From positions 1 through 43,792 of the forward strand of contig CALRGT010000007.1 in assembly GCA_943358095.1 (NCBI GenBank): 43,792 bases of DNA, written 5' to 3'. This DNA comes from an uncultured Candidatus Saccharimonas sp. (GTDB lineage Bacteria > Patescibacteriota > Saccharimonadia > Saccharimonadales > AQU-01). The notes beneath the pieces were generated by a model, which was given only the letters and a program-made list of their open reading frames with translations, did no database searches and had not been told where the DNA came from. Within the stretch, counting starts at the first letter, position 1. The number at the start of each line of letters is the position of its first letter. The translations under genes were made by a program, and so were the position numbers. This document shows positions 15,116-31,219 of the stretch, in pieces.

Positions 15116-15191
15116 TGGAGGGCCAGGTGGGACAGCGTCGGGCTACGCGCCGGCTAACCCACGATTCGTGGGTTCAAATCTACTGGCTCCA
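15116..15191 (-). repeat. tRNA-trailing module (Lys)
   Basis: Sense: TGGAGCCAGTAGATTTGAACCCACGA-ATCGTGGGTT-[AGCCGGCGCGTAGCCCGACGCTG]-TCCCACCTGGCCCTCCA; inverted plus direct tRNA-Lys 3' half with a 23-nt T-loop insert. Confidence 0.75.
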
Positions 15192-15302: not shown

Positions 15303-15416
15303 TTATATATTTTTAAAGCTGTGACTTTTTGATGTCTTTACGAGCTACTAAAAAATTAAAACCAACAGATGCACTTTATCAAATTACCTCTGTTTTTGCA
15401 ACAGTCTCTGCCCTGG

Positions 15417-15471
15417 AAGCCAAATAAAAAACCCAGATGAACTGGGTGTTTTATTTGGTGCGCCCGGACAG
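15417..15471. repeat. 55-bp perfect direct repeat, copy A (tRNA-Arg 3' end + terminator)
   Basis: Identical to 15585..15639 by manual comparison. Confidence 0.93.
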
Positions 15472-15579
15472 TTAGCGCACATCAATCAAGGCGCCCGCTT
15501 CGCTGGGGCCTATTACTGATGACCGAACCACCGACTTTCGCCAGCTAAAGCTGTCGAGGTCGGCGGTTCAAATCTGTCC
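15456..15579 (-). repeat. tRNA-trailing module (Arg-TCG)
   Basis: Sense: GGACAGATTTGAACCGCCGACCTCGACAGCTTTAGCTGGCGAAAGTCGGTGGTTCG-[GTCATCAGTAATAGGCCCCAGCGAAGCGGGCGCCTTGATTGATGTGCGCTAA]-CTGTCCGGGCGCACCA. Confidence 0.82.
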
Positions 15580-20797: not shown

Positions 20798-20954
20798 GTC
20801 TAATCGAAACCCCGACCGCGGCAGCTTGCTGACGCATAGGTTGGGGGTTCGATATTTCGCATAGTGCGAAATATATACTGAAGCCGATTCGTCCTACCAA
20901 AGCAAAATAATATGGACGAACCGGCCTGAGGTAATAATCCCTCCGGGTGTACCA
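20798..20954 (+). repeat. tRNA-trailing module (Arg-TCT)
   Basis: TGGTCTAATCGAAACCCCGACC-GCGGCAGCTTGCTGACGC-ATAGGTTGGGGGTTCGA-[~80-nt two-hairpin insert]-ATCCCTCCGGGTGTACCA. Confidence 0.8.
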
Positions 20955-20990
20955 ATTTTAGAGCCCCAGCTTGTCTGGGGTTTTAAAATT
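20955..20990. terminator. Terminator distal to the Arg-TCT module
   Basis: AATTTTAGAGCCCCAG-CTTGT-CTGGGGTTTTAAAATT. Confidence 0.82.
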
Positions 20991-20992
20991 GG

Positions 20993-21165
20993 CAGACACT
21001 CGGGGGATTCTTACACCTTGGCCAAAAGGTCGGGGTGAGGCATGCTGGGAGCATGTCGCAAGGAAACCTACTCTTCAAAACTTGTTTTGAATGATGTAGT
21101 TTCGGGCCTGCCAAAGGTAGGCCTTCAAGACGACATCAAATTTATCCTCGCTTCAGTAAAACCCC
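20993..21165. ncRNA. Candidate structured intergenic RNA or element
   Basis: Successive hairpins CACCTTGGCC-AAAA-GGTCGGGGTG, CATGCT-GGG-AGCATG, TTCAAAAC-TT-GTTTTGAA, GGCCT...AGGCC; no ORF. Confidence 0.4.
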
Positions 21166-22761: not shown

Positions 22762-22907
22762 GGGCATGTTCCTGGCATAGACTTACACGACACGATCCGA
22801 CTTGTCGGAGCGTTAGTCGTGGGAATCAATAATTAGTCTTAGCCCCCAGCTTCAACGAAGCGGGCGGCTAGATTAATTTCACCTTAGGTATCCCATAGCT
22901 CGCCCCA
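22762..22907 (+). repeat. tRNA-trailing module (His)
   Basis: TACACGACACGATCCGACTTGTCGGAGCGTTAGTCGTGGG-[AATCAATAATTAGTCTTAGCCCCCAGCTTCAACGAAGCGGGCGGCTAGATTAATTTCACCTTAGGTA]-TCCCATAGCTCGCCCCA. Confidence 0.78.
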
Positions 22908-30338: not shown

Positions 30339-30414
30339 CGGGGTGTGGCGCAGTTGGTAGCGCGCGCGGTTTGGGACCGCGAGGTCGAAGGTTCGAGCCC
30401 TTTCACCCCGACCA
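30339..30414 (+). tRNA. tRNA-Pro(TGG), CCA encoded
   Basis: CGGGGTGTGGCGCAGTTGGTAGCGCGCGCGGTTTGGGACCGCGAGGTCGAAGGTTCGAGCCCTTTCACCCCGACCA. Confidence 0.96.
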
Positions 30415-30452
30415 AAGAAAAAAGGTTACATTTATGTAGCCTTTTTTCTTTG
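30415..30452. terminator. Palindromic terminator after tRNA-Pro
   Basis: AAAGAAAAAAGG-TTACATTTATGTAG-CCTTTTTTCTTT. Confidence 0.85.
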
Positions 30453-30580
30453 GCAGGCGTTAGTACTCGCTTCTTCGACGCGTCAGCTTGAGCTGACGCA
30501 GGTCGAGGGTTCGGTCATCAGTATAATGCCCGAGATTTATCTCGGCGCATAGATTGATGTGCACTGCCCTTTCACCCCTA
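30452..30580 (+). repeat. tRNA-trailing module 1 (Pro)
   Basis: ...CTTCGACGCGTCAGCTTGAGCTGACGCAGGTCGAGGGTTCG-[GTCATCAGTATAATGCCCGAGATTTATCTCGGCGCATAGATTGATGTGCACT]-GCCCTTTCACCCCT. Confidence 0.82.
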
Positions 30581-30680
30581 TTTGACAGTAACAACTGACG
30601 AAAGGTCAAAGTTCGGTCATCAGTCACAGGCCCCAGCGTAGCGGGCGCCTGGATTGATGTGCGCCTCCCTTTCACCCCTA
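30581..30680 (+). repeat. tRNA-trailing module 2 (Pro), in tandem
   Basis: TTTGACAGTAACAACTGACGAAAGGTCAAAGTTCG-[GTCATCAGTCACAGGCCCCAGCGTAGCGGGCGCCTGGATTGATGTGCGCCT]-CCCTTTCACCCCT. Confidence 0.82.
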
Positions 30681-30724: not shown

Positions 30725-31219
30725 CTATCTATAGTCAACGACCCGAAATTCACGACCTGAATTCTTGTGATCAATCAAGTTCATCTGAACAGCCCTAACC
30801 AGCCCTCGGACGGCAACAAATGCGTCGTCAGCTGATAAGCCGTACATGTCAACCAATTCATCGTGCTTGTCATAAAAAGAAACATCTGTCTCTTCAATTG
30901 ACGCATTAAAATCTATCTTAGAAATTGGAGATGATGATTTAAAAGGCATATTAACTTCGCCAATCAAGACTTGACTTGGAGCTGTGCCAAGAACACTAGA
31001 AGCCGACAATCTTTCGCCTGGCAAATAATCTACAGAAGTCATTGCAGGATGCTTAATGAATGCACCACTAAAACGATTCAACATTAAAGTAGGCTCTTTT
31101 TGAAGAACATCATATGGAGCGAAAGTATTGTAACGATACTTTGCTAATAGTGGAATATCAAGACCAGCCAGCGCATGAATAGGGCCAAGATGGCCCCTTT
31201 CTATATTGAATTGAGGCAT
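30725..31219 (-). CDS. Hypothetical protein
   Basis: Continuous 164-aa ORF, starts after intergenic spacer; no family recognised. Confidence 0.7.
   Translation of the reverse strand: MPQFNIERGHLGPIHALAGLDIPLLAKYRYNTFAPYDVLQKEPTLMLNRFSGAFIKHPAMTSVDYLPGERLSASSVLGTAPSQVLIGEVNMPFKSSSPISKIDFNASIEETDVSFYDKHDELVDMYGLSADDAFVAVRGLVRAVQMNLIDHKNSGREFRVVDYR

Follow-up and report, generated by a model that had tools for sequence, protein, structure and literature searches.

Here we describe paired modules that stand directly behind a tRNA-Pro(TGG) gene in a 43,792-nucleotide contig of an uncultured Candidatus Saccharimonas sp. (CALRGT010000007.1 of assembly GCA_943358095.1; this whole stretch is called the window), and that are built in part from copies of the tRNA itself. 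We consider it probable, at roughly 0.6, that units insert immediately behind tRNA genes and that these and like modules serve as their end sites. The genome to which the window belongs as contig 7 (G000) measures 694 kb, of which 690 kb were covered, at 42% GC, and named sequence records that hold the same modules are from Saccharibacteria.

The tandem modules behind tRNA-Pro

The array, which lies on the + strand throughout, is anchored by an intact tRNA-Pro(TGG) gene (30339-30414; ARAGORN, Rfam RF00005). An inverted repeat at 30412-30453 forms a terminator-like hairpin; its stem extends into the CCA end of the tRNA, and unit 1 would start here. Module 1, of the type that we call class A, occupies 30454-30579. 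It opens with a decayed inverted copy of the tRNA-Pro T-arm (the left arm, 30463-30479, recognized from its sequence and from the pairing of the arms), which is followed by a small hairpin, GCGTCAGC-TTGA-GCTGACGC (30480-30499), similar to hairpins in the modules of other tRNAs, by a direct copy of the T-arm 5' strand, GGTCGAGGGTTCG (30501-30513), by an insert hairpin of the CCCGAG..CTCGG subtype (30514-30565; 75.5 bits with the class-A covariance model (CM), and backed by covariation), and finally by a copy of the acceptor-side 3' strand of tRNA-Pro (30566-30579), which belongs to a repeat family. Module 2 (class A, 30580-30680) adjoins it without a gap and carries an insert hairpin of the subtype CCCCAGCG..CGGGCGCC (30616-30666; 72.1 bits) and a second acceptor-side copy of the same repeat family (30667-30680), so that both modules lie within 270 nt 3' of the tRNA.

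An earlier note on this DNA had proposed two abutting modules in which the T-loop is broken right after GTTCG, and both points are borne out: each module consists of a T-arm 5' strand copy that runs to GTTCG, an insert of 51-52 nt and the acceptor-side 3' strand copy. The note had also placed the core of module 2 closer to that of tRNA-Arg(TCG) than to its tandem neighbour, which agrees with insert identities of 91% versus 74%; the initiator-Met locus, elsewhere in the genome, is nearer still (95%). Its term 'T-loop insert' catches the splitting of the T-arm copy and falls short of the larger object, which would be a foldable site that ends a unit of a tRNA-anchored array. What the note had overlooked are the terminator at 30412-30453, the two elements that precede each insert (the inverted T-arm copy and the small hairpin), and like modules behind three more tRNAs of the window (Lys-CTT, Arg-TCT and His).

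Shared anatomy and the covarying insert hairpin

Read away from the tRNA, modules follow a common order: a terminator, an inverted copy of the T-arm (sometimes with the acceptor strand too), a small hairpin, a direct copy of the T-arm 5' strand that ends in GTTCG or GGTT, the insert, and a 3' half that often includes CCA and a further terminator. The small hairpin reads CGACAGCTTTAGCTGGCG at Arg-TCG and has look-alikes at Met, Pro and Ala. At least three classes of insert can be told apart, namely class A with one hairpin, class B with two and the short class C, which occur in 23, 7 and 9, respectively, of the 295 genomes of the class Saccharimonadia. Class-A matches begin 60-150 nt 3' of a tRNA gene and on its strand in 43 of 62 cases, spanning 21 isoacceptors, and others stand at the far end of cargo. 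Most class-B and class-C modules, too, stand behind tRNAs of various kinds, and class C extends to a more distant family.

For class A we examined 65 matches (60 distinct sequences), in which 11 of the 18 stem pairs show two-sided change. Two-sided-change cells numbered 142 against 50.7 in shuffles, a control that leaves relatedness in place (0 of 500 shuffles as high), and slid controls were far lower. The slide control and the recurrence of the hairpin at unrelated tRNAs speak for a real structure; its form suggests the role that we would give it. Left arms pair better with the right arms of their own modules than with right arms from elsewhere (as good in 0 of 2000 permutations, and in 5 of 2000 within genomes), and whole modules fold with a z of about -5, the tRNA-sense strand folding better in 49 of 62. 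No hammerhead or other ribozyme core was seen by eye. In the IMG/VR database the class-A and short-site patterns (the latter described below) gave no convincing match, loose patterns returning chance matches or an apparent conserved coding gene.

A separate arrangement was noted around the centre of locus L190 of genome G109, where an older tRNA-Leu is split and encloses an intact tRNA-Leu(TAG); the 5' part and the class-C 3' part of the older gene still correspond as an acceptor stem. The arrangement resembles the replacement of a whole tRNA by insertion.

Copies of tRNA 3' halves across the genome and the clustering of inserts

To count copies of a tRNA's own 3' half we allowed no more than 2 mismatches in 15 within 6 kb of the tRNA gene. 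The window's genome has 18 such copies downstream and on the strand of the tRNA, distributed over 15 of its 36 tRNA genes, compared with 0 downstream on the opposite strand, 1 upstream on the same strand and 0 upstream on the opposite strand. When tails were permuted among tRNAs, the number of matched tRNAs averaged 1.07 with a maximum of 7 (observed, 15). A second genome, the 1.1-Mb G199, has 7 tail copies at 6 of its 40 tRNAs, with 0, 1 and 0 in the same controls.

Insert identities were compared among 54 class-A modules from about 20 genomes. Inserts of the same genome behind different tRNAs have a mean identity of 0.762, a value reached in 0 of 1000 label shuffles, while inserts of different genomes behind the same isotype (0.674) do not rise above the background of 0.670 (p=0.42). 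Inserts are thus independent of tRNA isotype, as their same-isotype identity equals the background and their within-genome identity is higher. Strict clustering by isotype, which the earlier note had named as the pattern of purely vertical descent, is not what these inserts show. Clustering by genome fits spread or exchange between tRNA loci, or gene conversion within genomes. The note's proposal of exchange or mobility between tRNA loci is partly supported by this result and by the presence and absence of cargo described below.

Variable cargo at orthologous tRNAs

What lies between tRNA and module differs among orthologous tRNAs, where cargo may be present or absent, also between modules. 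At tRNA-Gln(TTG) there is none in G271 and in a further stretch (L073), whereas G199 has two units with small open reading frames (ORFs), each ending in GTT(G)CGAAGTRCGTCAACTAGGGGTAGCC, and in G277 the cargo runs to about 6 kb and encodes a large serine recombinase together with a G2P-like replication protein and a methylase. Behind tRNA-Arg(TCT), G271 has no cargo, G247 has unknown genes over 5.2 kb, and G199 has a single 312-aa ORF with a variant module; behind tRNA-Arg(GCG) four genomes have no cargo, G247 a HAD hydrolase and G199 a 178-aa ORF. At the Met locus several genomes have no cargo, and G247 has 7 kb between two modules, encoding a C5 methylase and AbiU (PADLOC E=2e-172). The window's genome has five ORFs and at least six sites arrayed there, and its Lys(TTT) and Asp arrays also carry ORFs. 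Cargo at orthologous tRNAs includes AbiU, methylases, SDR and HAD proteins, and as far as sequence comparison can tell, its presence and absence support the view that units may move as wholes.

A short site and arrays of single genes

Several cargo units end in a short site of about 29 bp, GTTGCGAAGTACGTC.ACNANGG followed by the acceptor-CCA of the local tRNA. This pattern has 10 matches in the 1.1 Mb of G199, each of them 3' of one of four tRNAs and in its orientation, and 1 match when written backward; in G000 it has 1 match, behind Lys-TTT and ending in GGCCCTCCA, and 0 backward. These counts are only descriptive, because the pattern was built from some of the sites in question. The independent part is the agreement of site ends with the local tRNA and the positions of matches that did not enter pattern building. 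In G199 the ends mirror their tRNAs as GGGCAGCCA at Gln-CTG, GGCCCTCCA at Lys-CTT, GGGGCACCA at Arg-TCT and GGGGTAGCCA at Gln-TTG, and the short site is also present in G096 and G277. A motif, GCATAAGC, which follows CCA seemed to recur in arrays and is not used as evidence, a loose genome-wide count giving 65, little more than the 55 of the control.

Tandem single-ORF cassettes with a recurrent site occur behind tRNA-Gln(CTG) and tRNA-Lys(CTT) of G199 and at the Met locus of G000. The two tRNAs of G199 head arrays in which many neighbouring sites are one ORF apart, the ORFs being Ham1-like, endonuclease/phosphatase-like or unknown. The Gln(CTG) array (L227 4520-14400, G199 C2:424520-434400) has at least six short sites, most neighbours being one ORF apart, and in its middle are ordinary-looking genes without sites. 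The Lys(CTT) array (L239 2893-20000, G199 C2:662893-680000) has a serine recombinase antisense to the tRNA, a tyrosine recombinase, a C5 methylase and a subtilase-family gene, and after these short-site cassettes.

Candidate recombinases

The window's genome encodes one tyrosine recombinase, a Xer-like protein of 309 aa near tRNA-Arg(CCT), and a single Xer-like gene is also the sole tyrosine recombinase in most of the module-bearing genomes tested, among them G277, G247, G287, G082 and G144. The Lys-CTT array of G199 contains a second tyrosine recombinase. Two diverged serine recombinases, 24% identical to each other, abut tRNA-Gln (Gln-TTG of G277) and tRNA-Lys (Lys-CTT of G199); their C-termini are encoded antisense to the tRNA, and both belong to short-site arrays. 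Candidates for the enzyme that would act at the sites are large serine recombinases working in trans, or the host Xer. Two ideas on Xer were set aside. One took xer beside tRNA-Arg(CCT) for an integrase platform, but the same synteny is found in genomes without class-A matches; the other sought a dif site as a link between the sites and Xer, and its best candidate coincides with the beginning of a coding gene, off the turning point of the skew.

A model of tRNA-anchored units and its rivals

In the model that we favour a tRNA gene would serve as a fixed insertion platform, much as attI does in an integron. A unit would start after the CCA, often with a terminator, carry no gene, one gene or longer cargo, and end in a site that repeats the tRNA acceptor-CCA, either the long foldable module or the short site of about 29 bp; since the site repeats the acceptor-CCA the next unit could therefore insert there, and arrays would grow. 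An entering unit would restore or keep the 3' end of the tRNA. Folded on the tRNA-sense strand, the arms of a module are predicted to rebuild the T-arm/acceptor duplex, one strand of which then bears an additional hairpin, and in this form the module resembles, by analogy, a structure-recognized recombination site such as attC. Recombination would take place at these sites, the fold presumably forming in single-stranded DNA, and the Pro tandem would be two gene-less units stacked behind their tRNA. The model may be carried further, to an analogue of the integron in which many tRNA platforms, single-stranded folds that mimic the T-arm and acceptor, and competent cells together capture cassettes, some of them for defence, with Xer or a trans-acting serine recombinase as the enzyme; this extension is tentative, and we rate it below an even chance.

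Several observations weigh against the favoured model. Most modules in the window's genome have no gene, class-A modules are confined to the 23 of 295 genomes given above, and the covarying stem contains a nearly invariant G-U pair, which an RNA could show too. In comparisons across species and genera, mostly of metagenome bins, no excision, circle or strain-level gain or loss was seen. A serine recombinase was not found in the window's genome, so that the enzyme there would be Xer, lost, or supplied in trans; an IntI-type integrase was not found either, the IntI-specific extra domain not itself having been scanned for. Finally, a unit that ends in the 3' sequence of its own tRNA should return only to that tRNA, yet inserts cluster by genome, which calls for gene conversion or a further step.

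A rival view is that the modules are a structured noncoding RNA family, transcribed by read-through from the tRNA promoter and mimicking or regulating the tRNA 3' half, perhaps as a maturation switch in which the inverted T-arm pairs with the 3' half of the tRNA or with the downstream copy. Strong covariation including G-U pairs, the better folding of the sense strand in 49 of 62 modules and the ability of the inverted arm to pair with the tRNA 3' half through the terminator would all suit such an RNA. However, in 32 of 35 comparable cases tRNA and module are separated by a terminator-type hairpin with a run of T, which leaves hardly any space for a promoter ahead of the module, modules also occur kilobases from the tRNA behind unrelated genes, and their distribution is patchy even among related genomes. 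The modules have no match in Rfam either, which on the window returned only tRNAs at the gathering score and no credible weak match at permissive thresholds, and we judge an RNA family unlikely. An equally doubtful account would have the modules be inert, attR-like 3' halves left by lost integrative elements, their inverted copies having arisen by fold-back DNA synthesis at the terminator hairpin. Integrative elements commonly leave tRNA 3' repeats, some modules are plainly decayed (Ala-TGC and the last site of the Met array), and an inverted copy directly after a terminator hairpin is what fold-back copying should produce. Against inert remains stand the pairing of the insert hairpin, kept through two-sided changes, the module-specific pairing of the arms, the recurrence of the same hairpin classes at many tRNAs and in distant families, and the two terminator copies at Arg-TCG, which read alike. 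These features argue for recent or maintained units.

Very improbable, in our view, is a placement of the hairpins into tRNA genes by an HUH or IS110 transposase, in the manner of repetitive extragenic palindromes (REPs) and their RAYT transposases or of IS110-like mobile hairpins. The hairpin units do prefer the position after GTTC, and the window's genome has one RAYT-like Y1 transposase gene (C2:97586-97813, in a 209-aa frame), a kind of gene rare among the relatives tested. Yet there is no Y1 transposase in the module-rich genomes G277, G247, G271 and G199, an IS110 transposase was found in 0 of 15 genomes, and REPs do not bear the 3' half of a neighbouring tRNA; the absence of the transposases excludes both systems as general movers.

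Other modules in the window and its genome

The tRNAs of the window with modules behind them are Lys(CTT), Arg(TCG), Arg(TCT), His and Pro. On the - strand, tRNA-Arg(TCG) is followed by a class-A module at 15472-15579 (class-A CM, 69.4 bits) that comprises the inverted T-arm (15558-15579), the small hairpin (15538-15557), the T-arm copy (15524-15537) and the insert (15472-15523), and then by a repeat of the tRNA 3' half with CCA and a second terminator copy (15415-15471). A class-C module lies behind tRNA-Lys(CTT), also on the - strand (15116-15190; class-C CM, 49.8 bits). On the + strand are a class-B-like module behind tRNA-Arg(TCT) at 20800-20954, which scores 62.6 bits with the class-B CM as a sequence that is itself part of the model alignment, and a diverged class-A module behind tRNA-His at 22764-22907, which scores 32.0 bits with the class-A CM from outside the model alignment.

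Beyond the second terminator behind tRNA-Arg(TCT) there is a structured stretch (20983-21150) with GTAGTTTCGGGCCTGCCAAAGGTAGG. A similar motif precedes the 3'-half copy behind tRNA-Val(TAC) in G199 and may represent another insert class, and the tRNA-Val(TAC) module of G000 (C3:7812-8010) has an insert unlike classes A, B and C. Directly 3' of the Pro modules, on the - strand, is a 164-aa ORF without a Pfam match (30725-31219).

Known relatives and significance

Recombination sites supplied by a single-stranded fold are known from the attP of the CTX phage and from integrative mobile elements exploiting Xer (IMEX), where the enzyme may be the host Xer; here the target is the tRNA 3' end and not dif, and a use of Xer would be conjecture. 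With integrons and clusters of attC sites lacking integron-integrases (CALINs) the arrays share tandem, mostly co-oriented single-ORF units that each end in a site, and sites whose inverted arms allow a single strand to fold, and CALINs are likewise arrays without a linked integrase (PMC9668308). They differ from integrons in that the platform is a tRNA gene, present in many copies per genome, and that site ends copy the tRNA acceptor-CCA; no IntI or attI was found, units often begin with a terminator, and many have no gene. By inspection the attC R boxes RYYYAAC and GTTRRRY are not present at the sites, where GTT is found and RRRY does not follow it.

Additive flexible genomic islands at tRNA genes, such as those of Methylopumilus with repeats of the tRNA-Lys end, also place variable cargo behind a tRNA with tRNA-end repeats of about 20 nt, but their description includes no foldable module that combines an inverted T-arm with an insert hairpin and a small hairpin (PMC10872708), and here close to half of the tRNA genes of one genome are used. 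Tycheposons and other tRNA-targeting integrative elements, which use a tyrosine recombinase, have in common with our units the cargo beside a tRNA, the 3'-end repeats and defence cargo (PMC10872708), whereas our units measure about 100 bp to a few kb, mostly lack a recombinase and carry an interrupted and an inverted T-arm copy in the site. Arrays anchored at tRNAs are therefore of a known kind, and the foldable modules that mimic the T-arm are the new part. A literature search, with most subscription papers and preprints outside its reach, found no description of such arrays in Saccharibacteria, and a tRNA-anchored cassette system in this group is apparently undescribed.

Natural competence has been established for a Saccharibacterium, and no natural plasmids are known in the phylum (PMC11665869). 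Competence would deliver single strands. The very small genomes of Saccharibacteria still differ in accessory genes, and a cassette system of this kind, if real, would explain where these genes enter and mark natural sites of insertion that genetic work on this difficult group could use. It would also make the host's tRNA genes many parallel capture platforms in one chromosome, and thereby a second route, beside the integron, to gene arrays with structured sites.
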